This document shows positions 4,337 through 39,647 of a DNA stretch of 46,173 nt, in pieces. Location: the NCBI GenBank assembly GCA_022824805.1, contig JAJDZE010000063.1, positions 1 to 46,173 on the forward strand. Reading direction: 5' to 3'. The notes beneath the pieces are model-generated. The model was not told the origin of the DNA and ran no database searches. It saw only the letters and a list, made by a program, of their open reading frames with translations. A program made the translations under genes and the position numbers. Position 1 is the first letter of the stretch. Every line of letters starts with the position of its first letter. The stretch is from Acidimicrobiia bacterium. GTDB lineage: Bacteria > Actinomycetota > Acidimicrobiia > Acidimicrobiales > Poriferisodalaceae.

Positions 4337-4359
4337 TGGCCCAGCGAACAAGAGCGGGA
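4337..4359 (+). repeat. Truncated copy of the dispersed GC-rich repeat
   Basis: TGGCCC is followed directly by AGCGAACAAGAGCGGGA. This equals the longer copies at 11677, 35818 and 38081 after removal of an internal block of about 17 bp. It sits 3 nt after the monooxygenase stop codon. Confidence 0.6.
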
Positions 4360-4372
4360 CACCTATTCCCGC
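4354..4372 (+). terminator. Short hairpin after the monooxygenase gene
   Basis: GCGGGA (4354-4359) and TCCCGC (4367-4372) form a 6-bp stem with a 7-nt loop, 21 nt after the stop codon and before trpF. There is no U-tract. The left arm is the end of the repeat copy. Confidence 0.35.
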
Positions 4373-4407
4373 CGCCGCGAGGGATCGCCTGACATGCCGG
4401 TAGTGAC

Positions 4408-5082
4408 ATGTTCGTAAAGATCTGTGGCGTCACGAACGAAGAGGATGCGCTGGTTGCCGTCGGCATGGGCGCCGACGCCGTCGGCTTCAACTTCGTGCCC
4501 GGATCACCACGGCAGATCACTCCCAGGCTGGCGCGAGACATCGTTCGCCGGCTGCCGGGAGGGATTGTCACCGTCGGTGTGTTCCGCAACGAGCTGCCCG
4601 AGCGGGTAGTGCAGGTCATGGACGGCGCCGGCCTGCGCCTGGCCCAGTTGCATGGCAACGAGACCACGGCCGACAGCCGCTGGATCGCCGAGCGGGTGCC
4701 CGGGCTCATCAAGGCGTTCGTCGCGGGCGATCCCAATGTGGAGCGCGTACGCGATTACGGCGCCTCGGTCTTGATGCTCGACGGACCTGAGCCCGGCAGC
4801 GGCAGCGTCTTCGACTGGCGGCAGCTCGAAGGCCGAGATCGCGGCATGAGACTGCTGCTCGCGGGCGGGCTGCGCGCATCGAATGTGGCGCAGGCCATCG
4901 AGATCGTGCGGCCGTGGGGCGTGGATGTGGCATCGGGCGTCGAGTCCGAGCCCGGTCGCAAAGACGTGCTCGCCATGCGCGAGTTCGTCGCGGCGGCCAA
5001 GGAGGCCGGAGCTCGCTACGAGAATGCCGACGTGTCGGCGCCGCCCGAACAGGGCGCGCCGTACGACTGGCGCGACGACTGA
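4408..5082 (+). CDS. trpF: Phosphoribosylanthranilate isomerase
   Basis: This 224-residue TIM barrel catalyses the Amadori rearrangement of phosphoribosylanthranilate. The start MFVKICGVTNEEDA carries the catalytic Cys in KICG. GADAVGFNF, LAQLHGNE, the Asp in MLDGPEPGSG, and the phosphate-binding LLAGGLRASNV and VDVASGVESEPGRKD are all present. It is followed 12 nt later by trpB. A dedicated TrpF is notable, because many actinobacteria cover this step with the bifunctional PriA; see findings. Neither trpC nor trpD is in the window. Confidence 0.95.
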   Translation: MFVKICGVTNEEDALVAVGMGADAVGFNFVPGSPRQITPRLARDIVRRLPGGIVTVGVFRNELPERVVQVMDGAGLRLAQLHGNETTADSRWIAERVPGLIKAFVAGDPNVERVRDYGASVLMLDGPEPGSGSVFDWRQLEGRDRGMRLLLAGGLRASNVAQAIEIVRPWGVDVASGVESEPGRKDVLAMREFVAAAKEAGARYENADVSAPPEQGAPYDWRDD

Positions 5083-5094
5083 GCGAAGGACGAC

Positions 5095-6306
5095 ATGGCA
5101 GCAGAAACGGACGGGCCCACGTCGAGTCATCGGTCGGTTATGGGCGAGCCCACAACCGATGGCCGTTTCGGCGACTTCGGCGGCCGATTCGTTCCCGAGA
5201 CGCTGGTCGCAGCGTGCGAGGAGCTCGAGGCGGCGTTCCGGGAGGCCTGGGCCGACCCGGCGTTCGTGGCCGAATTCGAGACCATACTGCGCGACTACGG
5301 GGGACGGCCGTCGCCGCTGACCGAGTGCCGCAACCTGTCGAGCCAGCTCGGCGTGCGCCTGCTGGTGAAGCGCGAGGATCTCAACCACACGGGCTCGCAC
5401 AAGATCAACAACGTGATCGGGCAGGCGCTGCTGGCTCAGCGCATGGGCAAGACACGGCTGGTGGCTGAGACGGGTGCCGGCCAGCACGGTGTGGCCACTG
5501 CGACTGCGGCGGCGCTGCTGGGCATGGAGTGCAAGGTGTACATGGGCGCCGTCGATGTCGACCGTCAGGCCCTGAACGTGTTCCGCATGCGCCTGCTGGG
5601 ATCCGAGGTGGAGTCGGTGCAGTCCGGCAGCCGCACCCTCAAAGACGCGGTCAACGAGGCGCTGCGCGACTGGGTGGCCACCGTCGAGAACACGCACTAC
5701 TGCCTCGGCTCGGTGATGGGCCCCCATCCGTACCCATGGATGGTGCGCACGTTCCATCACATCCTGGGCGACGAGGCCGCTGCGCAGTGCAAGGACCTCA
5801 CCGGCGGCGATCCGGACGTGGTGGTGGCGTGCGTGGGCGGGGGAAGCAATGCTGCGGGGATCTTCTCGGGCTTTGCCGATGGCGACGCCCGTCTCGTGGG
5901 CGTCGAGCCCGCCGGCGGCGCCGCAGTCGGGCGCGGCGTGCCCGGCGTGGTGCACGGCATGACCAGTTATCTCATGCAGGACGAGGTGGGCCAGGTGATG
6001 GAGGCAGAGTCGATCTCGGCCGGGTTGGACTATCCCGGCGTCGGTCCCGAGCACGCTTACCTGGCGGCGATCGGGCGTGCCGAATACCCGAGCGTGACCG
6101 ACGACGAGGTGGTCGAGGCGTTCACGCTGATGAGCAGGGCCGAAGGCATCATCCCGGCGCTGGAATGTGCGCACGCACTGGCGTGGATCGTCCGGGCGGC
6201 GCCGGAGATCCAGGGTCAGACGGTGCTGATGAATCTCTCGGGCCGTGGCGACAAGGACGTCGACCAGATGATGGACGTGCTCGGGATGCACGGGATCGTC
6301 TCGTGA
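5095..6306 (+). CDS. trpB: Tryptophan synthase beta subunit
   Basis: The protein has 403 residues. The PLP lysine is K103 in [21 protein letters not shown], the glycine-rich phosphate loop VGGGSNAAG, and the C-terminal [11 protein letters not shown] are intact, so it should be active as TrpB1. It joins indole from TrpA with serine. ATG 5095 follows AGGA at a usable distance; a second ATG 15 codons on ([17 protein letters not shown]) is closer to the family's normal N-terminus, so the first residues may be an extension. It lies 12 nt after trpF. Confidence 0.97.
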
Positions 6307-6376
6307 CCGGTCGCCGTCGCACCACAGCGAGCACTGTCGCTCGATCGGCGAGGGCTGTGAGCATGGACGCCGCCTC

Positions 6377-7183
6377 GTGAGCGCCGCCGAAGCCAGTACG
6401 CGGCGTGATTCGTTCGGCGCCCTCGAGACGCACCTGCGGGCTCGGCGTGAGAGCGGCGCGAAGCTGCTAGTGCCTTACGTCACAGGCGGCTACCAGGGCT
6501 GGCAACGTGCGGTGGAGGCGGCAGCGGCGGCCGGTGCCGACGCCATCGAGATCGGCGTTCCCTTCTCCGACCCGGTGATGGATGGGCCGGTCATCCAGCA
6601 GGCATCCACTGCGGCCTTGGCCGACGGCGCGACCCCGGCATCGGTGCTGGAGGAAGCACGGGAGCTCGACACCGGCGTGCCGCACGCAGTGATGACGTAC
6701 TACAACCTCTGCCACCACCAGGGCCATGAACGCTTCGCTTCGGCGCTGCTCGATGCGGGTGTCTGCGCGGCGATCCTGCCCGACCTGCCGTACGTCGAGG
6801 CGGGGTCGTGGCTGGAGGCTGCGGCTGAGACGGGCCTCGAAGCGATCCTGCTGGCGGCGCCCACCACGCCCGAGCACCGGCTCGCTGATCTGTGCGGGGC
6901 ATCGCGCGGCTTCGTCTATGCGGTCGGCCTGCTCGGCGTCACCGGCGAGCGGACGGCCCTCGCCCGCACGGCCACCGAGATTGCGGCCCGCTGCCTGGCC
7001 GTCACCGATCGGCCCGTGCTCACCGGTGTGGGCATCGGCTCGCCGTCCCAAGCCGTTGAGGCCTGCGAGGTATCCGACGGCGTCATCATCGGCTCCGCCG
7101 TTGTCCGCACCCTGATGTCCGACGGCCCTGAGGCTGTGGGCGAGCTCGTGGCCTCCTACCGGACGGCGCTGGACCACGGCTGA
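6377..7183 (+). CDS. trpA: Tryptophan synthase alpha subunit
   Basis: This 268-residue TIM barrel cleaves indole-glycerol phosphate. The catalytic Glu is E58 in IEIGVPFSDP; the second acid is in VMDGPVIQQAS. LPDLPYVEAGSW and GVGIGSPSQA (phosphate site) are present. The usual Gly-rich loop 6 reads AVGLLGVTGERT. The start is GTG 6377; an upstream ATG at 6363 runs into a stop. A 70-bp gap to trpB is wide for this pair but holds no other gene. Confidence 0.95.
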   Translation: MSAAEASTRRDSFGALETHLRARRESGAKLLVPYVTGGYQGWQRAVEAAAAAGADAIEIGVPFSDPVMDGPVIQQASTAALADGATPASVLEEARELDTGVPHAVMTYYNLCHHQGHERFASALLDAGVCAAILPDLPYVEAGSWLEAAAETGLEAILLAAPTTPEHRLADLCGASRGFVYAVGLLGVTGERTALARTATEIAARCLAVTDRPVLTGVGIGSPSQAVEACEVSDGVIIGSAVVRTLMSDGPEAVGELVASYRTALDHG

Positions 7184-7186
7184 CCG

Positions 7187-7636
7187 GTGACGCAGCACCA
7201 ACCGAACGCGGACGTTGACCACCCGGTCGCCTCGGGGGACAATTCCAACTCGGTCGCTGCGACCAGGTCGGGTCGTGGTGAATCGGCAGCGTTCGATCCG
7301 GACTGCGAGCTGTGCGAGGCCGCCCGCTTCACCCACTGGTACTACGAGGACGAGCTGTGCTGGGTGGCGGACTGCGAAGTGTGTGCCACGCCCATGGTGG
7401 TGTGGAAGCAGCACGGTACTCAGCCGCCTGCCGATGAATTGGCAGCGATGCTGGCTCGGCTAGTCGAAGCGGGTGAACTCAGATTTGGGCCGGAAGGTGG
7501 GAGGGTGGACCAGGTGATGCGCCAGATCCCCGACCATTTCCACGCCCACTACCGCGACGCCGACTGGATGTCCCGTCGCTGGATGGAACCCCCGAGTCGC
7601 TACACCGGCGTCGGCACGCCACGGGAGACCCGATGA
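7187..7636 (+). CDS. HIT-like protein with extra cysteine pairs
   Basis: The protein has 149 residues; GTG 7187 lies 3 nt after the trpA stop, suggesting coupled translation. After about 35 variable residues come CELCEA, WYYEDELCWVADCEVC, PMVVWKQHG and a C-terminal PDHFHAHYRD. This order (N-terminal CxxC, an H near the middle, HxHxH near the end) resembles histidine-triad nucleotide hydrolases or transferases, with HFHAH in the place of the triad. CELC and the later CEVC might bind zinc. The HIT assignment is by pattern and unconfirmed. The gene overlaps the cytochrome gene by ATGA. Confidence 0.55.
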   Translation: MTQHQPNADVDHPVASGDNSNSVAATRSGRGESAAFDPDCELCEAARFTHWYYEDELCWVADCEVCATPMVVWKQHGTQPPADELAAMLARLVEAGELRFGPEGGRVDQVMRQIPDHFHAHYRDADWMSRRWMEPPSRYTGVGTPRETR

Positions 7637-8091
7637 GCGGTCGTCGCAAGCTCGCTCGAGCAGGTGCCCGGATCATAGGACCTGCCGCAGCGGCTTCAGC
7701 GAGCGGTGATGCCGTACCTAGCGATGTTCGCGCCCGGCGGCTCGTCGGGAACTGGGCGCTGGGGCTCGTTGTCGCGCTGGCGCTGGCGAGCTGCGGCGGC
7801 AGTGACGCCACAGAAGCCGACCTGGAGCGGCTGGAGCAGGCGTTCGAGAGCGCCGATGTGACGCTCGGGAGCGAGGTCTTCAGCGACAGCTGCTCGGTGT
7901 GCCACGGCAGCGACGGCAGCGGCGGTGTCGGCGCAGCGCTCGGCGGCGTCGACGAACGCCTGACCGTTCGCGACCACCTAGCTGTGGTGTGGACCGGTCG
8001 AGGTTCGATGCCACCGTTTGGCGGCATCCTCACCGACGCCGAGATAGCGGCCGTGGTGGCCTACCAGCGGAGCACGTTCGGCGAGGGGTGA
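7633..8091 (+). CDS. c-type cytochrome lipoprotein
   Basis: The protein has 152 residues. A hydrophobic stretch (about 40-53) ends in the lipobox LALASCGG, so the mature protein would be lipid-anchored outside the membrane. The haem-binding motif is CSVCH near residue 90, followed by GSDGSGG; the likely distal ligand is the Met in GSMPPFGG. Small cytochromes of this type (cytochrome CBB3/cytochrome c class I) shuttle electrons. About 40 residues precede the signal sequence, unusually long for a lipoprotein, so the true start may be further in, although the ATGA overlap with the previous gene supports 7633. Confidence 0.8.
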   Translation: MSGRRKLARAGARIIGPAAAASASGDAVPSDVRARRLVGNWALGLVVALALASCGGSDATEADLERLEQAFESADVTLGSEVFSDSCSVCHGSDGSGGVGAALGGVDERLTVRDHLAVVWTGRGSMPPFGGILTDAEIAAVVAYQRSTFGEG

Positions 8092-8164
8092 GCCTCCGTC
8101 CGCCGGCTTTCGTTGACCCTCGATGCGCTCATGATGCAGTGGGCTGCGCGGCCTGAGTGAGATG

Positions 8165-8170
8165 TAGCGT
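8165..8170 (+). promoter_or_regulatory. -10 TAGCGT of fabZ, leaderless-type
   Basis: TAGCGT ends 7 nt before GTG 8178, placing the expected transcription start at or next to the start codon. No ribosome-binding site is visible. This decides the start at 8178 over GTG 8157. Confidence 0.5.
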
Positions 8171-8177
8171 CGCCCCA

Positions 8178-8624
8178 GTGAGCGAGTCTGAATTCCCGCG
8201 CCCCGACGAGCTGCTGCCGCACCGGGCGCCGTTCTTGCTGGTGGACGACATCGTCGAGCTCCAGCCCGGCGAGCGCTGCGTGGCGCATTGGCACCTGACC
8301 GGCGACGAGGACTTCTTCGCAGGTCACTTCCCAGGCCGTCCGACGCTGCCCGGAGTGCTGATGGTCGAGGCCCTCGCCCAGACCGCCGGTCTCGCCGCGG
8401 CCTCAGCATCGTCGCTGGAAGGCAAGCTGGCGCTCTTCGGAGGCATCGACAAGGCCCGTTTCCGCCGCCAGGTCACCCCAGGCGACACGCTGCGCCTGGA
8501 AGCCACGATCGACCGCCTGTCCGCCCGAGCCGGCAGAGCCTCAGGCACCGCCAGCGTCGAAGGTCAGACCGCCTGCGAAGCCTCAATGATGTTCCTCATC
8601 GCCGACGCCAACACCGTCGATTGA
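8178..8624 (+). CDS. fabZ: 3-hydroxyacyl-ACP dehydratase, FabZ-type
   Basis: This 148-residue hot-dog protein dehydrates 3-hydroxyacyl-ACP in fatty-acid elongation. Diagnostic segments are LLPHRAPFLLVDDI, the catalytic His in GHFPGRPTLPGVLMVEALAQ with the downstream Glu, and FGGIDKARFRRQVTPGD. It stands alone, about 23 kb from the fabD-fabF operon. The GTG at 8178 lies 7 nt after a -10 hexamer, so the mRNA is predicted to be leaderless. It could instead be an FabA/FabZ-like protein with another carrier, but the motif order is ordinary. Confidence 0.92.
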   Translation: MSESEFPRPDELLPHRAPFLLVDDIVELQPGERCVAHWHLTGDEDFFAGHFPGRPTLPGVLMVEALAQTAGLAAASASSLEGKLALFGGIDKARFRRQVTPGDTLRLEATIDRLSARAGRASGTASVEGQTACEASMMFLIADANTVD

Positions 8625-8691
8625 GCCCGCCGTAAGGTCCTCCCGGCAGAGGCCCTTCCGTCCAATCCGCTGTGGTGCCGAGCTCTCTGAG

Positions 8692-8952
8692 TCAGCCCGA
8701 GGAGTGGCCGGCTTCGACGATGGCGGTCACGGTCTTGCGGCCGAGGCCGGACACTTCGGCGAGCTGGCGCAGCGAAGCGCCTGACTCGTGAGCCACCCGG
8801 ATCATGTCGTCGCGAATCTCTGCTTCCTTGAGTACCCGCTCGGCGCTGAGACCAACGACCGCCAGCGCTGCGGCGACCTCGCCGTCGAGTTCTGCGCGGT
8901 ACTTGTTCATTGCCGCTCGGGCGGCTGACACGTCAGCTTCGGTGTAGGTCAT
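8692..8952 (-). CDS. Small helix-turn-helix protein
   Basis: This 86-residue protein has a C-terminal helix-turn-helix, GASLRQLAEVSGLGRKTVTAIVEAG, preceded by an alpha-helical, acidic and alanine-rich segment that might dimerise. It overlaps its upstream neighbour (starting at 9110) by ATGA, so the two are co-translated. The arrangement, two small genes divergent from a DUF2442 gene, is like small regulatory or toxin-antitoxin loci, but no toxin is recognisable. It is a probable DNA-binding regulator; its target is unknown. Confidence 0.65.
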   Translation of the reverse strand: MTYTEADVSAARAAMNKYRAELDGEVAAALAVVGLSAERVLKEAEIRDDMIRVAHESGASLRQLAEVSGLGRKTVTAIVEAGHSSG

Positions 8953-9110
8953 CGATCCCCCCGCAGTTCGGTCGCGAGCTTGTCTCGAATCGACATCAAG
9001 GTTGCGATCCGAGGAGACATGTCGCCAGCTGCCTCGGCGTCGTTGAGGTGAGCTAGCACCATGCCGAGCAGTTCCAAGGCTTCGATCCGTTCAAGCTCGA
9101 CCTGAATCAT
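8949..9110 (-). CDS. Small helical protein of unknown function
   Basis: The protein has 53 residues from ATG 9110 and is mostly alpha-helical and acidic (MIQVELERIEALELLGMVL at the start). A TAGAAT hexamer exactly 7 nt upstream argues for this start rather than an in-frame one at 9149. It is the first gene of a two-gene operon with the helix-turn-helix protein. I do not recognise the family. It could be the partner subunit of the regulator. Confidence 0.5.
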   Translation of the reverse strand: MIQVELERIEALELLGMVLAHLNDAEAAGDMSPRIATLMSIRDKLATELRGDR

Positions 9111-9117
9111 TGGTCCA

Positions 9118-9123
9118 ATTCTA
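9118..9123 (-). promoter_or_regulatory. -10 TAGAAT, leaderless-type
   Basis: TAGAAT on the minus strand (9123 to 9118) lies 7 nt before ATG 9110 and is a close match to the consensus TATAAT. Confidence 0.5.
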
Positions 9124-9174
9124 GCCAGTAGTGGCTCAACTAGAACCACTCCGGGTCAGAGGGGCTTGATCAGT

Positions 9175-9180
9175 TAGCTT
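9175..9180 (+). promoter_or_regulatory. -10 TAGCTT of the DUF2442 gene, leaderless-type
   Basis: TAGCTT ends 8 nt before ATG 9189. No ribosome-binding site is visible. It is one half of a divergent promoter region of 78 bp. Confidence 0.45.
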
Positions 9181-9188
9181 CTCGACCC

Positions 9189-9470
9189 ATGGATGCGACG
9201 GCCGAATTGGTGTGCCCTGTCGAGGTCGAGGCTCGCGGGCAATACCGTCTCTGGCTGCGATTCTCCGACGGCGTGGAGGGCGAGGTGGACGTGTCCGATC
9301 TCGCTGGGCAAGGCGTGTTCGCCGCATGGCAGGACACGTCATTCTTCGATTCGGTCCGCATCGACGAGGCGCGCGCAGTCTGCTGGGGCGATGCCATCGA
9401 CCTGTGCCCAGATGCGCTGTACCTGCGCCTCACCGGAACGTCGCCCGAGCGCTACCTGCCCGGCTATTGA
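9189..9470 (+). CDS. DUF2442 domain protein
   Basis: The protein has 93 residues and matches the small DUF2442 family by the pattern RLWLRFSDGVEGEVDVSDL, GVFAAWQD, FFDSVRID, AVCWGDAIDLCPDALYL. These proteins are often paired with DUF4160 proteins in toxin-antitoxin-like loci. No DUF4160 gene is seen here. The neighbours are the divergent helix-turn-helix pair. The family call is good; the function is unknown. Confidence 0.8.
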   Translation: MDATAELVCPVEVEARGQYRLWLRFSDGVEGEVDVSDLAGQGVFAAWQDTSFFDSVRIDEARAVCWGDAIDLCPDALYLRLTGTSPERYLPGY

Positions 9471-9748
9471 ACGGTGAAGGCGGGTGCTCGCTCGGTTCTG
9501 CGGGCAGCTCGACGTCGGCGGTGTCCGACATCACGTCGCTCGTTCCGGACCGGCCGCAGCTGGAAAGTCCGAGAGGCGGGCCGGTCACGCCGACGAGTCC
9601 CAGGCAAGGCACCCACAACACGCAGGGCCAGTTTTGCGCCAAGTCAGACACAGACAGCCCGCCTCCCGCACACATCTTCACTGTTTTGCGCAGGCTCGCT
9701 TGGGCAACCGTGACAAGAGGGCGTTTGGCCGCTGCGGAGAGACTTCGC
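9471..9748. other. Gene-free stretch between convergent genes
   Basis: No convincing gene, RNA or repeat was found between the DUF2442 stop and the SDR stop. A minus-strand open frame (9430-9681) runs through it but resembles nothing I know and overlaps the end of the DUF2442 gene. Confidence 0.5.
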
Positions 9749-10543
9749 TCAGCGGAGGTGGGTGGGGCGGGGGTCGGCTAGGCGGCCGAGGGGCGATTGG
9801 GCTCGCAGGCCGCCGTCCACCACGATGGCTTCGCCGGTGACGAATGACGACTCGTCGCTGGCGAGCCAGGCGGCCACGCTGGCGATCTCATCGGGATGGC
9901 CGAGACGGCGCAAGGCGTGCGCTGCCAGATTGCGTTCGAGCGCCGCAGGGTCCTGCATCATGCGCTGCACGGGCGGCGTCTGGATGGTGCCGGGGCAGAT
10001 GGCGTTGACGCGCACGCCGTCGGGGGCGTGATCGGTGGACAGTGCTCGCGTCAGGTTGATCACGGCCGCTTTGGAGGCGGCGTACACCACCGAGCCGCCG
10101 TCGCCGTGCAAGCCGCTGATCGAGGCCGTGTTGACGATCGAGCCGCCGCGGCGAGCCTCCATCGCCGGCACCGCGTACTTGGCGCCCAAGTACACCGACC
10201 GCACGTTGACGTTCATGACGAGGTCCCAATCACGGGGCTCGAGCTCCACCGCGGTGCCGGGGCGGATGGTGCCAGCGTTGCTGTAGAGCACGTCGAGGCC
10301 GCCCCAGCGGTCCACGGCCGCAGCCACCATCGCCTCCACATCGTCGGGCTCCGCGACGTTGGCGCCGAAGCCGTGGGCCTCGCCGCCGGCCTCCATGATC
10401 GACTCGGCCACGCCCTCAGCTCGCTCGCGACGGATATCCACCACCAGCACCGACGCACCCTCGGCGGCGAAACGCTTCGCGCTCGCCTCGCCGATGCCTG
10501 ATGCACCGCCGGTGACGATTGCGACTTTGTCCTTGAGCAGCAT
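9749..10543 (-). CDS. Short-chain dehydrogenase/reductase (SDR)
   Basis: This 264-residue classical SDR has the cofactor loop TGGASGIG, the acidic residue VVD at the end of strand 2 (suggesting NAD(H)), NAG, the catalytic Ser in NTASISG and YAASK. The C-terminal VDGG motif is present, plus about 15 extra residues. ATG 10543 has a strong Shine-Dalgarno (GGAGGG). The substrate is unknown. It lies next to an HSL-type esterase and close to the P450/glutamine-synthetase-like module, and could oxidise a hydroxylated product of that module (inference). Confidence 0.9.
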   Translation of the reverse strand: MLLKDKVAIVTGGASGIGEASAKRFAAEGASVLVVDIRRERAEGVAESIMEAGGEAHGFGANVAEPDDVEAMVAAAVDRWGGLDVLYSNAGTIRPGTAVELEPRDWDLVMNVNVRSVYLGAKYAVPAMEARRGGSIVNTASISGLHGDGGSVVYAASKAAVINLTRALSTDHAPDGVRVNAICPGTIQTPPVQRMMQDPAALERNLAAHALRRLGHPDEIASVAAWLASDESSFVTGEAIVVDGGLRAQSPLGRLADPRPTHLR

Positions 10544-10587
10544 GCGATTCCCTCCGAGCGCCGCGCCGGGCCCTGCGGACATCGCGA

Positions 10588-10647
10588 GGCTGAGTTGATC
10601 GGCGAAGCCTTGGCCCGAGCGGCCGTGAGCGTAGCGAACACGAGTGG
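10588..10647 (+). repeat. Degenerate copy of the dispersed GC-rich repeat
   Basis: GGCTGAG, then GGCGAAGCC, TGGCCCGAGCGGCC, GTGAGCG, TAGCGAACA and CGAGTGGG follow in the same order as in the copies at 11677 and 38081, with several substitutions and small indels. It lies between the divergent SDR and esterase genes. Confidence 0.6.
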
Positions 10648-10789
10648 GCGGCAAGGGGCGATGCGGCGACGGAGCGTCCTGATCCGCGCACGCGCCGGCA
10701 GTCCACGCCGGGCCTCGTCGTGCCAACGTGGCTACGTTGTGGCGGCCGATCAGATGGTCCCGATGCGGGCCGAGACAGGGGAGGGCTCG

Positions 10790-11674
10790 ATGGCGAGCGA
10801 GGCGTTCTACAAAATCCGCGACATCATCGCGTCGCAGGCCATGCCTGCCGATATCGACGCGATGCGCAAGGGCATCGAGCTCACGGCGCGGCCGCTGCCG
10901 GCCGGCGTCACCGGCGAGATGGTGGACGCCAACGGCGTTCCGTGCGAGCTGCAGACCCCCGACGAGACCACCGGCGACGCCATCGTGCAGTACGTGCACG
11001 GCGGCGGCTACGTCGCCGGTTCGATCGGCTCGCACCGGAACCTGACCGGCAACCTGGCGCTGCAGCTGGGCTGCCCGGTGCTCTCGGTCGACTACCGCTT
11101 GGCACCCGAGCATCCCCACCCGGCGCCGGTGGAGGACTCGGTTGCGGTGTATCGCTGGCTGCTCGATCGAGGCCACTCCGCCGACAAGATCGCCATCGCC
11201 GGCGACTCCGCCGGCGGCGGGCTGACGATGTCGACGCTCATGAAGCTGCGCGACCTCGGGCTGCCGTTGCCGGCCGCAGCTGTGCCGATCTCGCCGTGGG
11301 TCGACATGTCGGGCACCGGCGAGAGCGCCGTCACTCGCTCGGACCGCGACCCGATGGTGACCGCCGACGATCTCACCCGGATCGCCGGCGTTTTCCTCGG
11401 CCCCGACGGCGACGCCGCCGATCCGTACGCGTCGCCGCTCGAAGGCGACCTCGCAGGTCTGCCGCCGCTGCTCATCCACTGCGGTGACGACGAGGTGCTG
11501 CTGAGCGACAGCGAGCGGCTTGCACACAAGGCCCGCACGTCCGGTGTCGACGTGACGCTGGAGGTGTGGCCCGAGATGATCCACGTCTGGCACTCGATGG
11601 CCGGGCTGTTCCCCGAAGCCGACCAAGGCGTCGCCCGGGTGGCCGAATATCTGAGCGAGCGCCTCGCAATCTAG
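10790..11674 (+). CDS. Alpha/beta hydrolase, HSL-type esterase
   Basis: The protein has 294 residues. It belongs to the hormone-sensitive-lipase family of bacterial carboxylesterases: oxyanion motif HGGG (in VQYVHGGGYVAGS), nucleophile motif GDSAGGG, the Asp in IHCGDDEVL and the His in EMIHVW. YRLAPEHPHPAPVED is typical of the family. ATG 10790 was chosen because the sequence before it has no homology; a TACGTT hexamer lies at 10733-10738. These enzymes cleave short-chain esters or lactones. It may act with the neighbouring SDR and P450 genes. Confidence 0.9.
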   Translation: MASEAFYKIRDIIASQAMPADIDAMRKGIELTARPLPAGVTGEMVDANGVPCELQTPDETTGDAIVQYVHGGGYVAGSIGSHRNLTGNLALQLGCPVLSVDYRLAPEHPHPAPVEDSVAVYRWLLDRGHSADKIAIAGDSAGGGLTMSTLMKLRDLGLPLPAAAVPISPWVDMSGTGESAVTRSDRDPMVTADDLTRIAGVFLGPDGDAADPYASPLEGDLAGLPPLLIHCGDDEVLLSDSERLAHKARTSGVDVTLEVWPEMIHVWHSMAGLFPEADQGVARVAEYLSERLAI

Positions 11675-11676
11675 GA

Positions 11677-11739
11677 GGCTGAGCCGAAGGCGAAGCCGTG
11701 GCCCGAGCGGCCCGTGAGCGACAGCGAACAAGAGCGGGA
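11677..11739 (+). repeat. Dispersed GC-rich repeat, full copy
   Basis: It starts two bases after the esterase stop. It carries GGCTGAGCC, GGCGAAGCCGTGG, the shared core GGCCCGAGCGGCCCGTGAGC and AGCGAACAAGAGCGGGA. Compared with the copy inside polA (38081-38143), it has two compensating one-base indels and about four substitutions over 63 bp. Confidence 0.8.
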
Positions 11740-11781
11740 GACGACAGGCACCGCGACGAGAAGGTCCGCCTGCTTGCGCGG

Positions 11782-32344: not shown

Positions 32345-32429
32345 CGGTCGGCGCTCACTGTCCATGCTGGCCCACTGCCTGGGCAGGCCCACGGTGCAGG
32401 TCTGTGCCCATGACGCAGCAGGACAGGGC

Positions 32430-32663: not shown

Positions 32664-32723
32664 GCTGATCCCCTCATGTATGGGCGGTCACCGCACGAGC
32701 CCCCGACGGCCGTGCGAGTGCGC

Positions 32724-32729
32724 AGTGTA
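32724..32729 (-). promoter_or_regulatory. Candidate -10 (TACACT) upstream of acpP
   Basis: TACACT on the minus strand lies 60 nt before the acpP start, inside the gap after fabG, and could give extra acpP transcript. Confidence 0.3.
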
Positions 32730-32754
32730 GAGGGTGAGCCGATTTGGGCATGGC

Positions 32755-33489
32755 TCAATGGCCCATTCCCAGGCCGCCGTCGACAGGTATCACGGCACCG
32801 GTGATGTACGCGCCCTCGTCGGACGCCAGAAACGCCACCGCAGCAGCTATCTCGGACGGTTCTGCCACCCGTCCCAGCGGCACAGCGTCAGTGATGGCCG
32901 CTTGCTGCTCGTCGTTCAACGCACCGAACATCTCGGTAGCGACTGGCCCGGGCGCGACGACGTTCGCGGTGATGCCGCGCGAACCGAGTTCGCGGGCCAG
33001 CGATCGCGCCATGCCCACGAGGCCCGCCTTGGACGCCGCGTAGTTGACCTGTCCGGCCGAGCCCAGCAGTCCGACCACCGACGACACGAAGATCAACCGC
33101 CCCCAGCGTGCGCGCAGCATGGGCCTGGCCGCCCGCTTGGCCATCCGGTAAGCGCCAGTCAGATTTGTGTCGACGACAGCGGCGAAGTCGTCGTCAGCCA
33201 TGCGCAGCACGAGCTGGTCGCGGGTGATGCCGGCGTTGGCCACCAGAACCTCCACCGCACCGAGCTCAGCCTCGATCGACGCGTAGGCGGCATCGACGGC
33301 ATCGCTGTCGGCCTGGTCGCACGCCATCCACAGCAGACGGTCGTCGTCAGGGGCCTCGGTGCGGCTGGTGACGGCCACACGGTGGCCTGCATCGGCAAAC
33401 AACTGAGCCGTGGCCAGGCCGATGCCGCGGCTGCCGCCGGTGACGAGAACAGTGCGTGCTGTGGCCGGGCGCGCCTCGGGCTGATTCAT
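32755..33489 (-). CDS. fabG: 3-oxoacyl-ACP reductase
   Basis: This 244-residue SDR has VTGGSRGIG, NAGITRDQL (a FabG hallmark), the Ser in VSSVVGLLGSAGQ, YAASK and PVDGGLGMG. It reduces 3-oxoacyl-ACP with NADPH. It was started at ATG 33489, 25 bp after the fabH stop; an in-frame GTG at 33537 would overlap fabH. The segment after the cofactor loop is slightly short, which is common in actinobacterial FabG-like proteins. The operon position supports the specific role. Confidence 0.93.
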   Translation of the reverse strand: MNQPEARPATARTVLVTGGSRGIGLATAQLFADAGHRVAVTSRTEAPDDDRLLWMACDQADSDAVDAAYASIEAELGAVEVLVANAGITRDQLVLRMADDDFAAVVDTNLTGAYRMAKRAARPMLRARWGRLIFVSSVVGLLGSAGQVNYAASKAGLVGMARSLARELGSRGITANVVAPGPVATEMFGALNDEQQAAITDAVPLGRVAEPSEIAAAVAFLASDEGAYITGAVIPVDGGLGMGH

Positions 33490-33514
33490 CGTGAGCAGTG
33501 TGCGTGACGCTCGT

Positions 33515-34480
33515 TCAGCTAGCTCGGGCGGGAGCACCCGACCAGCGAAGCAGTGCCGACGCCGAGGTCATGCCGGCGCCGAAGCCGACGAGCAGCACGT
33601 TGTCGCCCTCGTTGATCTGTCCGCTGCGCACGGCGTCGTCGAGTGCGAGGGGAATCGAGGCCGACGAGGTGTTGCCGGTGCGCTCGATCACCATCGCGGC
33701 TTTCTCATAGGGGATGCGCAGCCGCTTGCAGGCTGTCTCGACAATACGGACGTTGGCCTGATGGGGCACCACCACATCGATGTCGTCGGCCGTCAGCCCC
33801 GCTTGCTTCATCGACTGGCGCGCCGACTCTTCCATCACCAGCACGGCTTTCTTGAACACCGCCTGGCCCGCCATCTGGATGTAGTCGCCGTGCTCGCAGT
33901 ACAGCTGCTCCTCCATGGAACCGTCGCTCGAGACATGCCAGCCGAGCAGGTCGGAGCCCTGCTCGCTGCGCTCGAGCACGGCGGCGCCCGAGCCGTCGGC
34001 GAACAGGATGCAGGTGGCCCGATCGGTCCAGTCGGTGATCCGCGACAGCGTCTCGGCGCCGATGACCAGCACCCGCTCGTGACCCATCGCGATCATGCCG
34101 TGGCCGGCCACCAGTGAGTAGACGAACCCTGAGCAGGCGGCGTTCACGTCCATGGCGCCGCAGTCGAGGCCGAGTGCCTCTTGCACCCGCGACGACGAGG
34201 CCGGAACGCAACGATCCGGTGTGGTGGTGGCCAGGATGAGCATGTCGATGCTCGACGGATCGACACCGGCGACCTCCATCGCAGCGGATCCGGCTCGTGC
34301 GGCCAGGCCGGCGGTGGTGCCCCCGATGTTCCGCTGCTTGATGCCGGTGCGCTCGATGATCCACTCGTCGGAGGTGTCGACCGTCTCGGCAAGATCTTCG
34401 TTGGTGAGGACGCGCTCGCCGAGCGCCGTCCCGATGCCGACAATGCGCGCGCTGGATGCGTTGCCCACGCTGAGCGTCAT
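33515..34480 (-). CDS. fabH: 3-oxoacyl-ACP synthase III
   Basis: The protein has 321 residues. The catalytic Cys is C116 in VNAACSGFVYSL, with His in VPHQANVRI and Asn in TGNTSSASI, so the triad is complete. It starts chains by condensing an acyl-CoA primer with malonyl-ACP. TSDEWIIERTGIKQRNI is the usual N-terminal signature. ATG 34480 is 29 bp after the fabD stop. GGGGGG(C) runs upstream of the start serve as the only visible ribosome-binding signal. Confidence 0.96.
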   Translation of the reverse strand: MTLSVGNASSARIVGIGTALGERVLTNEDLAETVDTSDEWIIERTGIKQRNIGGTTAGLAARAGSAAMEVAGVDPSSIDMLILATTTPDRCVPASSSRVQEALGLDCGAMDVNAACSGFVYSLVAGHGMIAMGHERVLVIGAETLSRITDWTDRATCILFADGSGAAVLERSEQGSDLLGWHVSSDGSMEEQLYCEHGDYIQMAGQAVFKKAVLVMEESARQSMKQAGLTADDIDVVVPHQANVRIVETACKRLRIPYEKAAMVIERTGNTSSASIPLALDDAVRSGQINEGDNVLLVGFGAGMTSASALLRWSGAPARAS

Positions 34481-34509
34481 CTGTGGCCCCCCCTTCTGGT
34501 GCTGGCTCT

Positions 34510-35694
34510 TCAACTGCCAGCGGCCGTCCGCAGCCACGCAACGGGCTGCCGTGCGGTGACCCGTTCGCCTTCTACGGCCATGATCCCCATGACAGTACCC
34601 GCGAACGCAGAGCGCACTTCTTCCCCGGCCACATGGCCGATGACATCGCCCACCGTGACTTGCTGGCCGTCGCCGACGCCAGCGCTGAGCGTGAATATGC
34701 CGGCGCACGGGCTCACGATGAGGCGCTCGGTGACGTACAGGTTCTCGCCGCCGAGCACGGTCGGCGCCGAAGGCGCATCGGTGGCGAGCGTCTCCATCAG
34801 CGTGTCGATCTCGGCAGGCGTGCCGACCGACACCGATGTCGCGCCTCGATGCGTCCGCTTGGTCATGCCGGTCAGCACCTTGCCCGGGCCGAGCTCGGTG
34901 AAGGTGGTGACGCCGGCGTCGGCCAGCGCATGGAGGCTGGCGCGCCACAGCACCGGTCTGGTGAGCTGCTGTGCCAGCAGCGTGCGCCACTCGTCGGCGT
35001 CGGCACGCGGCTGGGCATCGACATTGGCCACCACCGGCACGCTCGGGGCCCGGATCTCGACTTCGGCCAGCGCCTTGCGCAGACGATCCCTCGCCGGCTG
35101 CATGAACGGCGTGTGGAACGCGCCGCCCACTGGCAGGCCCATGAGCCGTTTCGCGCCCGCCGCCTTCGCTTCGTCACCAGCGACGGCGACAGCATCCGGG
35201 GCGCCTGCAATGACCACTTGGCCCGGAGCGTTGTAGTTGGCAACCCAGACATCGCCGGGCGTGGCTTCGCACGCCTCGGCCACGAGATTGTCGTCGAGAC
35301 CCAGCACGGCCGCCATGGTCCCTTCCTGCTCGTCAGCAGCAACCTGCATGGCCTCGCCGCGCTCGGCAACGAGCCGCACGGCGTCGTCATAGGCCAGGGC
35401 ACCGGTTGCAGTCAGCGCGCTGTATTCGCCCAGTGAGTGCCCGGCGGCATACGAGAAGGTCGCACCCGTGCGTTCGACCGCATCAAGCACCACCATCGAC
35501 AGCACGAACGTCGACAGCTGCGAATTGCGCGTGTGGCGCAGCTCGTCGGCGTCGGCTTCCAGCAGCAGCGCAGCGACATCACGCCCGCAGGCGTCGGACG
35601 CCTCGGTGACCAGCTCCCATGATTCGTGCGCTGTCCACGGCTCGCCCATGCCTTGCTGCTGCGAGCCCTGGCCCGGGAATGTGAATGCGAGCAC
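34510..35694 (-). CDS. fabD: Malonyl-CoA:ACP transacylase with extra biotinyl/lipoyl-like domain
   Basis: The protein has 394 residues. Up to about 305 it is FabD: FPGQGSQQQGMG, the nucleophile S87 in GHSLGEYSA, and H194 in GGAFHTPFM. From about residue 318 there is a second, small domain: LIVSPCAGIF, GQQVTVGDVIGHV, VRSAFAGTVMGIMAVEGERV, QPVAWL. This is the barrel-sandwich pattern of biotinyl/lipoyl carriers, but without the modified lysine (no AMKM). FabD is usually about 300-310 residues, so this is a fusion. GTG 35694 follows TAGGAGG. It is the first gene of fabD-fabH-fabG-acpP-fabF. Confidence 0.9.
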   Translation of the reverse strand: MLAFTFPGQGSQQQGMGEPWTAHESWELVTEASDACGRDVAALLLEADADELRHTRNSQLSTFVLSMVVLDAVERTGATFSYAAGHSLGEYSALTATGALAYDDAVRLVAERGEAMQVAADEQEGTMAAVLGLDDNLVAEACEATPGDVWVANYNAPGQVVIAGAPDAVAVAGDEAKAAGAKRLMGLPVGGAFHTPFMQPARDRLRKALAEVEIRAPSVPVVANVDAQPRADADEWRTLLAQQLTRPVLWRASLHALADAGVTTFTELGPGKVLTGMTKRTHRGATSVSVGTPAEIDTLMETLATDAPSAPTVLGGENLYVTERLIVSPCAGIFTLSAGVGDGQQVTVGDVIGHVAGEEVRSAFAGTVMGIMAVEGERVTARQPVAWLRTAAGS

Positions 35695-35817
35695 TCGGCC
35701 TCCTACCCAGCGCCGAGGCGGACGACCGGATCGGTGCCCGAACTGCAGCGCAGTGAACGCACAATGGGGATTAGGGCAAGAGGGTAGGTGGCGGCCTAGG
35801 CCGAGAGCGGCTTTTCC

Positions 35818-35882
35818 GGCTCAGCGCCCCGCTCTTGTTCGCTTCGCTCACGGGCCGCTCGGGCCTCGGGGTACGCTGAGCC
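35818..35882 (-). repeat. Dispersed GC-rich repeat, copy with terminal inverted repeats
   Basis: On the minus strand it carries GGCCCGAGCGGCCCGTGAGC, then GAAGCGAACAAGAGCGGG (35865 to 35828), identical in core to the copies at 11677 and 38081. This copy is bounded by GGCTCAGCG (35818-35826) and CGCTGAGCC (35874-35882), a 9-bp perfect inverted repeat. Its end is 8 bp before the tRNA. Confidence 0.75.
35872..35877 (+). promoter_or_regulatory. -10 TACGCT of the tRNA-Leu gene, inside the repeat
   Basis: TACGCT lies 13 nt before the mature tRNA 5' end and overlaps the right arm of the repeat's inverted repeat. The predicted start leaves a short 5' leader for RNase P. Confidence 0.45.
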
Positions 35883-35890
35883 GTCCCAAG

Positions 35891-35973
35891 GCCCGGGTGG
35901 TGAAACGGCAGACACGGGGGACTCAAAATCCTCTGCCCTCACGGGCGTGCGGGTTCAACTCCCGCCCCGGGCA
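35891..35973 (+). tRNA. tRNA-Leu (anticodon CAA)
   Basis: This 83-nt class II tRNA has the acceptor stem GCCCGGG/CCCGGGC, a D-arm with TGGTGAAACGGCAGAC, an anticodon loop CTCAAAA giving CAA (reads UUG), a long variable arm, and a T-arm GCGGG-TTCAACT-CCCGC. CCA is not encoded. It is placed by eye on pairing, with both ends fixed by the acceptor stem. Confidence 0.95.
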
Positions 35974-36029
35974 CTCGCAAGGCGGGAAAACCAGGCGGGC
36001 TCACACGACGAGCGTCTCTAAGGTGCGCT

Positions 36030-36084
36030 GTGGGACGGTGCCAGTTCACCCGAAGCGGTGTCTGCCAACCTGGCGCCGTCCCAC
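36030..36084 (+). terminator. Long near-perfect hairpin between tRNA-Leu and the ANTAR regulator
   Basis: GTGGGACGGTGCCAG (36030-36044) pairs with CTGGCGCCGTCCCAC (36070-36084): 15 bp with one G-U. The 25-nt loop holds a small CACC/GGTG hairpin. It starts 57 nt after the tRNA. It may end the tRNA transcript or be part of an RNA leader; there is no U-tract. Confidence 0.5.
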
Positions 36085-36197
36085 TTGTGCACGCTTCTAG
36101 CTTAGAGCGCCCAGTGGCCATCTCTGGCTGGATTTTCGGAGAGGCGCGACAACCCGACCGGTAGGCTGACCGATCCTGTCCCGCGAGGGGAGAGTGC

Positions 36198-36773
36198 GTG
36201 TCGAAGCGAGTCGTGATCGCAGAGGACGAGGCCATCATCCGGCTCGATCTGCGCGAGATGCTCGAAGACGAGGGCTACGTCGTGGTGGCCGAGACAGGCC
36301 GCGGCGACGAAGCCGTGGAGCTCGCACGCCGGCATCAGCCCGAGGTGTGCATCTTCGACATCCAGATGCCCGGCCGCGACGGCCTCGATGCGGCACGAGA
36401 GGTTGCCGGCGACCGCACATCCGCAGTGCTGATCCTCACCGCGTTCAGCAAGCGTCATCTCATCGCCGAAGCCCGCGACGCCGGCGTGCTCTCGTACTTG
36501 GTGAAGCCGTTCCAACGCGAAGAACTGGTCTCGGCCATCGAGGTGGCTTGGGGGCGTTTCACCGAGATGCGAGAACTCGAAGACACGGTGGAGAGCCTCG
36601 AGGAGAAGCTGGAGACGCGCAAGGCGGTGGAGCGTGCGAAGGGCCTGCTCATGGACGATTTCCAGCTCTCCGAGCGGGACGCCTTCGAGTTCATCAGGAG
36701 TACGGCGATGGCCAACCGCGCGAGAATGCGGGACATCGCCCAGCAGATCGTCGATGGCTTGCTGACCCCCTGA
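36198..36773 (+). CDS. pdtaR: Response regulator with ANTAR RNA-binding domain, PdtaR-like
   Basis: The protein has 191 residues. The receiver domain occupies about residues 1-118 (acidic pocket EDEAIIRLD, phosphoacceptor D54 in CIFDIQMPGRDG, LTAFS, LVKPF). A coiled linker follows (LEDTVESLEEKLETRKAVERAKGLLM), and the ANTAR three-helix domain follows to the end (AFEFIRSTAMANRARMRDIAQQI). Such proteins bind tandem RNA hairpins and relieve termination. It matches mycobacterial PdtaR in both architecture and position beside polA. Start GTG 36198 follows GAGGGGAGA; TAGGCT (36162-36167) is a candidate -10. Confidence 0.93.
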   Translation: MSKRVVIAEDEAIIRLDLREMLEDEGYVVVAETGRGDEAVELARRHQPEVCIFDIQMPGRDGLDAAREVAGDRTSAVLILTAFSKRHLIAEARDAGVLSYLVKPFQREELVSAIEVAWGRFTEMRELEDTVESLEEKLETRKAVERAKGLLMDDFQLSERDAFEFIRSTAMANRARMRDIAQQIVDGLLTP

Positions 36774-36842
36774 GCCCGCCTTCGGACATCTGCGGTTGGC
36801 AGGCTTCCGCAACCTTCACCCGGCCCCGTTGGGAGAGTTCCC

Positions 36843-39647
36843 ATGTCGAAGCTCCTCTTGCTCGACGGGAATTCGCTCACGTACCGGGCCTTCTTTGCCG
36901 TGCCCGAAGACATGGCCACCCGCTCGGGGCAGCCCACCGGCGCCGTCTTCGGGTTCACGTCCATGCTCATCAACCTGGTGCGCGACCACCGTCCTGACGC
37001 GATAGCGGTGTGCTTCGATCGTCGGGAGCCGACCTTCCGCCACACCGCAGCACCCGAGTACAAGGCTCACCGCGACGAGACGCCGCCGACGCTCATCGAG
37101 CAATTCGGCCTCGTGCGCCAGGTGCTCGAGTCGCTGAGCATCCCGGCGATCGACTGCGTCGGCTTCGAGGCCGACGACTTGCTGGCGACGCTGGCGTCGG
37201 AGGCGGAACAGCGCGGCGATGATGTGCTGATTGTCAGCGGCGACCGCGACGTGTACCAACTCGTGCACGATCCCAAGATCCAGGTGCTCTACAACCGCCG
37301 GGGGGTCACCGACTACGCGCTCTACGACGAAGCGGGCATCGCCGAGCGCACCGGCGTCACGCCCGATCTCTACGTGCAATACGCGGCACTTCGCGGCGAC
37401 CCGTCCGACAACCTGCCGGGAGTGCCCGGCGTGGGCGAGAAGACGGCCGCCAAGCTCCTCAACAAGTACGGCAGCGTCGAAGCGCTGCTGGCTGCCGCCG
37501 CCGACCAGACGCCCAAGCTGGCTGAGAACCTTGCAGCTCATGGCGAGGTCGTGCGGCGCAACGTTGAGCTGATGAAGCTGCGCACCGACGCTCCGGTCGA
37601 CGCCGCGCCAGCCGATCTGCAGTGGAACGGGTTCGACGCCGACCTCGTGACGCGCACGTTCGAGTTCCTGGAGTTCGGCACCCTGCACGCTCGCCTCCGT
37701 GACGCCCTCGAGGGCACGTCCATGGAGGGCCTGCTGGCGCCGAGCGCGGGTTCCCCCGAAGGGGCCCAGCTCGCAAACGTGCAGCTGCTGCCGGTGGACG
37801 CGGAGGGGGGCAGCCGTGGCGCCAGTGCCGCAGCGCTGCTGAGCGAGATGTCGCGACGCGACGAGCCTGTCGCGCTCGGCTTCACCGTGGAGGCCGACGG
37901 CGCCCTCGGTGTGCTGGCGGTCGCCGACGATCCCTCGCAGGGCACCGTGCTCGCGCTCGGCCCCGATGATCTCGTCGTGCCTGAGATCGCGGTGGCGTGC
38001 GTCCGCCTGCTGGCCGCTGACGGTCCGGGCGTGCATGTCCACCAGGCGAAGGAGCTCATGCGTGCGCTCGCCCGCCGAGAGGCTGAGCCCGCAGGCGAAG
38101 CCGTGGCCCGAGCGGCCCGTGAGCGGAGCGAACAAGGGCGGGAAGCACAGGGCGATCTGCAGGCCGGCGCGGCGCTCGCCGGGCTGGGCGTCGACACGTC
38201 GATCGCCGCCTATCTCATCCATCCATCAGAGGGCCGTGACGAGCTGAGCGCGCTGCTCGTGCGCCATTGCGGCACCGAGCTTGCCGGAGGCGGCACCGAG
38301 GGCCAGCTGGGTTTCGACGACCTCGGCGCCGATGGACCCACCGAAAGCGTCGTGGCCGCTCGTGACGCCCTGGCGGTGGCGATGCTGGCGCCGATGCTCG
38401 ATCAGCAGCTCGAGAGCTTGGGCATGTCCGACCTGTACCGGGATGTGGAGCGTCCGCTCATCAGCGTGCTGGCTCGCATGGAAGCAGCCGGCATCGGTGT
38501 CGACCGCGGCGAGCTGGAATCGCTCCGTGACCTTCTCACCGGCGAGGTGTCCGCGCTGGAAGCCGAAGTGCGCGAGCTGGCCGGCCGCGACGACCTCAAT
38601 GTCAACTCACCCAAGCAACTTGCCGAGGTGCTCTTCGAGGATCTGGGGCTGACGCCCCAGCGCAAGACCAAGACCGGCTACTCCACGAGCGCAGCGGCGC
38701 TGGAGTCGCTGCGGGGCGAGCACCGCATCGTGGATCGGCTGCTGGCGTTTCGCGAGGTGGAGAAGCTGCGTTCCACCTATGGCGTCAGCCTGCTCGAATG
38801 CGTGGAGCCCGACGGTCGCATCCACGCCACGTTCAACCAGACGGTGGCTCGCACCGGCAGGCTGAGCTCCGAGGATCCGAACCTGCACAACATCCCCGTG
38901 CGAACCGAGCAAGGCCGGCTGTTCCGGCGAGCGTTCGTGCCCGCGGATGGCTTCGAGCTGCTGATCGCCGACTACAACCAGATCGAGCTGCGGGTGATCG
39001 CCCACCTGTCCGGCGATCCGGGCCTCGTGGGCGCCTTCGAAGCGGGCCACGACATCCACAGCGCAACCGCCGCATCCCTGTTCGGCATCAGCCCCACCGA
39101 GGTCGACCCGCAGCAACGGTCGGCGGCCAAGATGGTGAGCTACGGCTTGGCCTACGGGATGGAGGCATATGGCCTCGGCCAACGTCTCGGCGTGCCCACC
39201 GGCGAAGCATCGGAGATCCTGGACGCCTATTTCGAAGCGTTTCCCAAGGTGCGCTCGTTCATGGACGGGGTGGTGGAGCAGAGCCGCGAGCGGGGCTACA
39301 CCGAGACGGCCTTCGGCAGGCGCCGCCCGCTGCCTGAGCTCACGTCGCGCAACTTCCGGGTACGCCAAGCCGCCGAGCGGCAGGCCATGAATGCCCCCAT
39401 CCAAGGGCTCGCTGCCGACATATTCAAGGTGGCGCTCATCCGGCTGGATGAGGCCCTGCATGCACGGTCCGCAGCCAGTCGGCTGGTGCTGCAGGTGCAC
39501 GATGAGGTGATCCTGGAAGTTCCCCCTGATGAGGCCGCCGAGGTGACCGATCTGACGGTCGAGGTGATGCGCAATGCCGCCGACCTGGCGGTGCCGCTGG
39601 AAGTCCATGTCGCTGCCGGCGCCACCTGGGCAGACGCCAAGGGCTGA
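36843..39647 (+). CDS. polA: DNA polymerase I
   Basis: The protein has 934 residues. The 5'-nuclease domain is at about 1-295 (SGDRDVYQL, DNLPGVPGVGEKTAAKLL). A 3'-5' exonuclease-like domain (about 325-490) has lost the FDTET-type acid motif (FTVEADG), so it is presumably inactive, as in other actinobacteria. The polymerase domain has motif A ADYNQIELRV, motif B AKMVSYGLAYGM and motif C QVHDEVI. Motif B has Tyr where E. coli has Phe762. Residues 413-434 are encoded by the dispersed repeat (38081-38143), read in frame. ATG 36843 follows GGGAG. Confidence 0.96.
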   Translation: MSKLLLLDGNSLTYRAFFAVPEDMATRSGQPTGAVFGFTSMLINLVRDHRPDAIAVCFDRREPTFRHTAAPEYKAHRDETPPTLIEQFGLVRQVLESLSIPAIDCVGFEADDLLATLASEAEQRGDDVLIVSGDRDVYQLVHDPKIQVLYNRRGVTDYALYDEAGIAERTGVTPDLYVQYAALRGDPSDNLPGVPGVGEKTAAKLLNKYGSVEALLAAAADQTPKLAENLAAHGEVVRRNVELMKLRTDAPVDAAPADLQWNGFDADLVTRTFEFLEFGTLHARLRDALEGTSMEGLLAPSAGSPEGAQLANVQLLPVDAEGGSRGASAAALLSEMSRRDEPVALGFTVEADGALGVLAVADDPSQGTVLALGPDDLVVPEIAVACVRLLAADGPGVHVHQAKELMRALARREAEPAGEAVARAARERSEQGREAQGDLQAGAALAGLGVDTSIAAYLIHPSEGRDELSALLVRHCGTELAGGGTEGQLGFDDLGADGPTESVVAARDALAVAMLAPMLDQQLESLGMSDLYRDVERPLISVLARMEAAGIGVDRGELESLRDLLTGEVSALEAEVRELAGRDDLNVNSPKQLAEVLFEDLGLTPQRKTKTGYSTSAAALESLRGEHRIVDRLLAFREVEKLRSTYGVSLLECVEPDGRIHATFNQTVARTGRLSSEDPNLHNIPVRTEQGRLFRRAFVPADGFELLIADYNQIELRVIAHLSGDPGLVGAFEAGHDIHSATAASLFGISPTEVDPQQRSAAKMVSYGLAYGMEAYGLGQRLGVPTGEASEILDAYFEAFPKVRSFMDGVVEQSRERGYTETAFGRRRPLPELTSRNFRVRQAAERQAMNAPIQGLAADIFKVALIRLDEALHARSAASRLVLQVHDEVILEVPPDEAAEVTDLTVEVMRNAADLAVPLEVHVAAGATWADAKG
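38081..38143 (+). repeat. Dispersed GC-rich repeat inside polA, in frame
   Basis: This is a full copy (63 bp) sharing the core GGCCCGAGCGGCCCGTGAGC and AGCGAACAAG with the copies at 11677 and 35818. In the polA frame it encodes EAEPAGEAVARAARERSEQG, a charged, probably helical segment in the degenerate exonuclease-like domain. Confidence 0.8.

Follow-up and report, generated by a model that had tools for sequence, protein, structure and literature searches.

The repeat family and its copies in the window

The window, a contig of 46,173 nucleotides (JAJDZE010000063.1 of assembly GCA_022824805.1) from an Acidimicrobiia bacterium of the Poriferisodalaceae, carries at five places whole or partial copies of a short, GC-rich element. 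The original prediction, made from the letters of this DNA, had recognized at least five copies sharing an ordered set of blocks, and all five places are borne out by direct reading and by matches to a profile, which we built from genomic copies and used to locate the element in the window and in relatives. The ~60-bp unit it described is a real repeat but makes up only the left part of an element of ~113 bp that includes a 3′ tail. The element is repetitive, has inserted since the species compared here split, shows a landing preference and keeps its fold through sequence change. Our best reading, favored by a modest degree, is that it is a non-autonomous mobile element, similar to repetitive extragenic palindromes (REPs), that probably moves as folded single-stranded DNA. 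The copies and their principal features are as follows.

4342..4362, plus strand: element remnant, the end of hairpin 2 (AGCGAACAAGAGCGGGA); weak profile match (12.5 bits, E 0.037)
10586..10689, plus strand: diverged full-length copy between divergent genes; profile 57 bits
11675..11783, plus strand: full-length copy; profile 87 bits
11677..11697, plus strand: hairpin 1 of this copy, GGCT-GA-GCC nnn GGC-GA-AGCC, with tandem G.A mismatches; from RNA fold, DNA fold and T-A/C-G exchange across subfamilies
11702..11738, plus strand: hairpin 2 core, CCCGAGCGGCCCG [TGAGC-loop-GCGAA] CAAGAGCGGG; from RNA fold and stem replacement across families
35828..35869, minus strand: core-only copy in the leader of tRNA-Leu (35891-35974, plus strand); profile 38 bits
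36843..39647, plus strand: DNA polymerase I gene (polA), 934 aa, host of an insert; Pfam DNA_pol_A 3e-143, 5_3_exonuc_N 1.7e-55
38077..38145, plus strand: 69-bp net in-frame insert in polA, read in the frame EAEPAGEAVARAARERSEQGREA; from orthologue comparison
38078-38158, plus strand: profile match of the 3′-truncated element in polA; 71 bits

The truncated copy predicted at 4337 is a remnant of ~20 nt with genes for a monooxygenase-like protein and a PRA-isomerase (trpF-like) on its two sides (neighbors assigned by Pfam), and the minus-strand copy predicted at 35818-35882 consists of the core alone. The 11675 copy begins immediately after the TAG stop codon (11672-11674) of an alpha/beta hydrolase gene.

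The left end, GAGGC, is followed by hairpin 1, by the core of hairpin 2, which is nearly invariant, and by a tail that varies. The full layout comprises hairpin 1 (GAGGCTGAGCCG nnn GGCGAAGCC), hairpin 2 (GTGGCCCGAGCGGCCCG TGAGC GNA GCGAA CAAGAGCGGGA) and a ~45-nt tail ending in ..CGCGC..CTC. Most full profile matches (79 of 83, counted without making them non-redundant) span 105-116 bp; in related genera the element reaches ~135 bp and more, with a longer left arm and the same core. Pairwise comparison of 51 full copies in alignment gives mean identities of 0.974 for the core and 0.961 for the left end, against 0.579 for the tail and 0.551 for loop 1; the core figure is biased upward, most loci having been fetched with core probes. 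Places found with the left-end probe, which is independent of the core, follow the same pattern: in 30 of 76 such places, 17 copies match 30 or all 31 of the core positions, five are cut within or altered in the core and eight have the left end alone. Intact copies therefore hold the core nearly constant while the tail drifts. The eight places with GAGGCTGAGCCG and no core (L295, L298, L300, L302, L314, L318, L320 and L324), some of them right before an ATG, may be leftovers of copies, arise by chance or represent an inserted end of minimal size.

Copies truncated on the 3′ side with an intact left end are frequent. In complete copies, the tail is partly complementary to the left end: on average 7.18 of 12 left-end positions pair with the copy's own tail, versus 6.90 with the tails of other copies (reached in 4 of 2000 permutations), and in the long form the corresponding values are 8.15 and 7.52 (0 of 2000). 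Head-to-tail arrays of cores also occur, with periods of 45 and 57 nt (L354:991-1124, L355:891-1043 and L333).

Copy number, mobility and landing sites

The genome (3.69 Mb in 211 contigs) contains the element in dozens of copies. The core 16-mer AGCGAACAAGAGCGGG, allowing up to two mismatches, matches at 50+50 positions versus 3+1 for the reversed pattern; the exact left-end 12-mer GAGGCTGAGCCG occurs at 76 places versus three for its reversed control; and a 62-nt consensus gives at least 46 BLAST matches (40 of 162 candidates scored). Equal abundance in shuffled sequence, the outcome against which the original prediction had set its claim, was not observed: when the same 11 sequences (~435 kb) were simulated once with a first-order Markov model, the profile had no match at E<1. 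Together with the reversed patterns, this control rules out chance or base composition as the source of the repeats. All ten congeners searched carry the element, bearing out the expectation of further copies in the genome and in relatives. Matches thin out beyond the genus: elsewhere in the family, three of the 26 genomes searched (G017, G019 and G020) had one, and a 60-nt core query matches 50 of 298 genomes across the order, congeners included. An exact core 22-mer is found in at least 115 stretches; among the 80 named matches listed, 78 are titled Acidimicrobiia or Acidimicrobiaceae, and several of the stretches are presumably sponge-derived, judging from isolate names.

A phage or plasmid origin was considered and dropped. 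A 120-base copy matched none of 50,697 phage and 72,556 plasmid records, and an exact 19-mer of the element was absent from the viral contigs searched.

Comparison of syntenic stretches, which together with the window amount to 1.23 Mb, demonstrates that the element has inserted since the species split. We counted as strong any copy of at least 40 bits, as comparable any relative whose flanks reach 80% identity, and as empty any gap with no profile match. By these definitions, 27 strong copies were found, four without a comparable relative; the other 23 represent, by our count, 18 distinct sites, and at every one of these sites the element is missing from at least one comparable relative. These are the orthologous sites with and without a copy that the prediction had called for. 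In 16 of the 18, an empty relative retains a leftover of only -10 to +14 bp. The copies at 10586, 11675 and 38078, the main ones in the window, are shared with G007 alone among the relatives compared; the 10586 and 11675 copies are each missing from five of six relatives. Loss occurs besides gain, because at site G008 143349 empty relatives hold a 16-nt remnant of the left end. At this site (L127) the element is present in G008 and, with a different loop, in G004, and a near-identical remnant lies in G009, G007, G000 and G002; that the close genomes G008 and G009 differ here points to interspecies recombination or to deletion on more than one occasion.

The element lands mostly behind particular dinucleotides, and often at a stop codon. 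Of 162 left ends, 61 have CT, 48 have CC and 20 have TC immediately before the purine run, and a stop triplet in any frame overlaps the left junction in 79 of the 162. Where the left end faces the end of a gene, 20 of 47 copies lie -4 to 0 nt from the stop codon versus 10.7 expected, and on the start side the count is none of 39 copies versus 4.9 expected, the expectation being uniform insertion in the same gap with genes called by our own codon-usage caller rather than taken from annotation. The letters of the element can themselves restore a stop codon, as in CACTAG in G010 and CACTGA in G004 (site G004 16623). Orientation to the neighboring genes is mixed: among 228 copies, 67 run with both genes and 43 against both, 44 lie between divergent and 38 between convergent genes, 30 are inside gene calls and six are at locus edges. 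Among 189 copies, 62 had a right end that could be used under a rough right-end rule, and these 62 end pairs show no convincing excess of target duplications; the best of the 48 combinations of offset and width listed reached 14 and 16 of 1000 shuffles, and single insertion sites are compatible with a duplication of 0-3 bp.

The copy predicted to lie in a coding region at 38081 does so, and its host proved to be DNA polymerase I, which it enters in frame. The insert adds 23 residues, is common to G000 and G007 and is missing from the other relatives aligned. Its peptide frame, EAEPxGEAVARAARERSEQERE, recurs in four further loci (L024, L027, L067 and L286), as judged among 19 of the 30 intragenic copies, with a weak coding score on the left side of L024; of the in-frame copies sharing this frame, the one in polA is that for which empty orthologues were compared. 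Elsewhere in the window, short direct repeats rich in CTC/GTC lie at 42147-42271.

A two-hairpin fold kept through sequence change

RNA folding, including a consensus fold, gives hairpin 1 as GGCU-GA-GCC/GGC-GA-AGCC and hairpin 2 as an outer CCCG.. stem plus an inner GUGAGC/GCGAAC helix. With DNA parameters, hairpin 1 is retained and hairpin 2 forms only in part. The fold is conserved while the sequence changes. In hairpin 1, the fourth pair across subfamilies is C-G in 78, T-A in 64 and another combination in five of 147 copies. In hairpin 2, the inner stem is swapped for six other fully paired stems in as many families, CCGGC/GCCGG in f14, GCGGC/GCCGC in f8, GTGCC/GGCGC in f24 (with one G-T pair), CGTGC/GCACG in f28, GCTGC/GCAGC in f21 and TCGCC/GGCGA in f53, while the outer sequence remains largely constant between families. 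The apical loop is a GNA triloop with a free middle base in 203 of 209 thirteen-nt loops; in 28 of 265 parsed cores, a longer insert of 27-28 nt replaces the triloop. GNA triloops closed by a C-G pair are exceptionally stable in DNA.

A conserved fold could also belong to a structured RNA, such as a 3′ untranslated region or terminator-like element whose transcript is useful to the adjacent genes, and the tendency of left ends to lie at gene 3′ ends would suit such a role. So would the tRNA-Leu leader, in which core-like sequence occupies the orthologous place in six of nine aligned relatives (G002, G004, G006, G007, G008 and G009). The leader core is absent in G003 and G005, and in G002 and G004 its apical loop is exchanged for longer sequences. 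However, every one of the 18 sites is empty in some relative, orientation to neighboring genes is mixed across the 228 copies, and at the gathering score the only Rfam match in the window is the tRNA itself. We regard a function of this kind as the least likely of the explanations weighed.

Candidate enzymes and competing explanations

In the reading we prefer, a recombinase acting in trans would recognize the folded single strand of the element, cut at a CT-like dinucleotide and paste the element elsewhere, as TnpA-REP and the IS200/IS605 enzymes do. Surviving copies would be those that land behind genes, that restore a stop codon by joining a T to the element's AG or GA, or that stay in frame. 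Recognition of a folded single strand is suggested because the GNA triloop, the tandem G.A mismatches, the invariant core, the lack of a convincing duplication and the CT-like landing site all fit it.

Several results weigh against this interpretation. Most single copies fold with energies that do not improve on those of shuffled sequence, with z values of -0.45, -0.17 and -3.36 for cores (the last being the 35818 copy), -2.98, -1.22, -0.25, -0.08 and -3.32 for full copies, and 0.24 and 0.65 with DNA parameters. Within the genus, where the sequence hardly varies, RNAalifold gives a covariation term near nil (-0.17). RNA would form the same stems, and the argument from triloop stability in DNA draws on general background. 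The end-pairing effect is small and copies may share ancestry, core conservation carries the probe bias noted above, and right ends show no excess at stop codons (8 of 20 versus 8.4 expected). The imperfect terminal inverted repeats would also fit an ordinary DDE transposon. Finally, a transposase-like gene of the kind that the original prediction had proposed to look for was not found in the genus: in a search for the Y1 class, which did not extend to other HUH families (Y2, relaxases), Y1_Tnp, the domain of the REP-associated tyrosine transposase (RAYT) family, was found in none of the 11 genus genomes and in two of 41 overall, with five of 14 control genomes positive. OrfB_IS605 (TnpB) was not found in the element's own genome either.

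The distribution of two other enzymes also weighs on the unfavorable side. Matches at E<=0.001, some of which lie under the family cut-off, occur for IS110 in 16 of 25 element-bearing versus one of 16 element-free genomes, and for RVT_1 in 12 of 25 versus one of 16. If a reverse transcriptase or IS110 recombinase mobilized the element, as one of retro- or guide-RNA type, this would account for the loose co-distribution, and also for the lack of detectable target duplication, the one-sided truncation and the structured core. Both enzymes are patchy within the genus, however, so that neither is shown to be the mover: among congeners rich in the element, searches found no RVT_1 in G003, G004, G008 and G010 and no IS110 in G006, G009 and G010. 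The element-free genomes are also mostly smaller, so that general mobile-DNA load could explain the co-distribution, and none of the copies was seen linked to a gene of either kind, although no systematic search was made. We consider this explanation improbable.

The main rival, which we judge unlikely but less so than the others, is that the element is a classical miniature inverted-repeat transposable element (MITE), derived by deletion from a DDE-type insertion sequence (IS) whose transposase moves it in trans as double-stranded DNA. Its imperfect terminal inverted repeats (AGAGGCNGAGC... and ...GCTCNCTCT) point in this direction and are clearest in the long form (AGAGGCCGAGCG-AATAGGTGAG versus the reverse complement of AGAGCGAGCGCAAATAGGTGAG); moreover, L181 holds a core-less copy of ~40 bp in which both ends are present, and a target resembling CTAG would be in keeping with some IS families. 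By contrast, a MITE does not require a conserved interior, whereas here the core varies least of all the parts and is common to several families; 3′-truncated copies with an intact left end are frequent; and the 62 end pairs give no convincing target duplication. No autonomous copy with the same ends turned up in the loci scanned, which do not amount to whole genomes: 2.5 Mb contained no split pair of profile matches such as a longer copy around a gene would produce, and end probes lacking the core, applied to the window and L080-L294, found remnants and one core-less end pair with no gene.

REPs are among the known systems closest to the element. Passages of PMC3733652 describe REPs as lying mostly downstream of genes, with termini that lend TAG stops, and as occurring inside repair genes, that of DNA polymerase I among them, and describe a conserved mismatch bulge in the E. 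coli-type REP hairpin. Our element is likewise short, high in copy number, hairpin-forming and mainly extragenic near gene 3′ ends, with a stop-supplying terminus and an insert in DNA polymerase I. Its CT/CC flank recalls the CT or CA at which TnpA-REP cleaves, an enzyme that in E. coli requires the mismatch bulge in the stem, according to part of the account in PMC8266576. Other features differ. REPs are sorted by end tag into GTAG and CGTC superfamilies, as one portion of PMC3733652 sets out, whereas these tags occur at six and two of our 162 left ends, respectively (two and seven in a control stretch), the count covering the left end. The element is ~113 bp or more rather than 20-40 bp, has two hairpins and partly complementary ends, forms head-to-tail core arrays and is accompanied by no RAYT-family gene found in the 11 genus genomes. 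Because the superfamily tags are missing at the left end, the element is REP-like rather than a REP.

The Rickettsia palindromic element (RPE) offers a second parallel, judged here from descriptions rather than from RPE sequences. It is a class of ~150 bp that inserts in frame in unrelated genes with a constant peptide, as outlined in part of PMC10969869, and the recurring peptide frame in our protein-gene copies resembles this. It differs in phylum, in its CGTC end (for Rickettsia conorii, as given in PMC3733652) and in that our copies are chiefly intergenic. The prediction of a spreading family of REP or RPE type therefore holds for behavior, including copy number, filled and empty sites, stop-codon ends and in-frame insertion, but not for membership, as judged by the rarity of GTAG and CGTC tags at left ends and the lack of Y1_Tnp in the genus genomes.

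Prokaryotic MITEs such as Correia, QMITE and RUP are also non-autonomous, shorter than 500 bp, bounded by inverted repeats and often truncated; unlike them, our element has a strongly conserved interior and neither a target duplication nor a parent IS was found for it. Derivatives of IS200/IS605 (palindrome-associated transposable elements) carry hairpins near their ends and insert behind a short motif without duplication. The element shares the hairpins, the insertion behind a short motif and the absence of detected duplication, but differs from IS200/IS605 in that TnpA (Y1) was found in none of the 11 genus genomes and TnpB was not found in its own. In the papers searched, none of four core strings of the element was found, nor any account of miniature inverted-repeat or intergenic repetitive elements in Acidimicrobiia or of CTAG-site MITE insertion at stop codons of bacterial genomes. 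The element may represent an undescribed REP-like class in this order, with a two-hairpin core that compensatory change preserves in many families, complementary ends and a non-Y1 enzyme acting on folded single-stranded DNA, a proposal we make more tentatively than that of a REP-like mobile element.

How REP-like repeats spread without a dedicated transposase is an open question, raised by CGTC REPs reported to lack one in a section of PMC3733652, and the present family has inserted since the species compared here split. Many pairs of filled and empty sites, combined with a core that keeps its fold, make the recognized structure readable from sequence, and the enzyme that moves the element could be hunted by its binding to a defined oligonucleotide. 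The insert in polA adds, from another phylum, an RPE-like case in which mobile DNA has been incorporated into DNA polymerase I.

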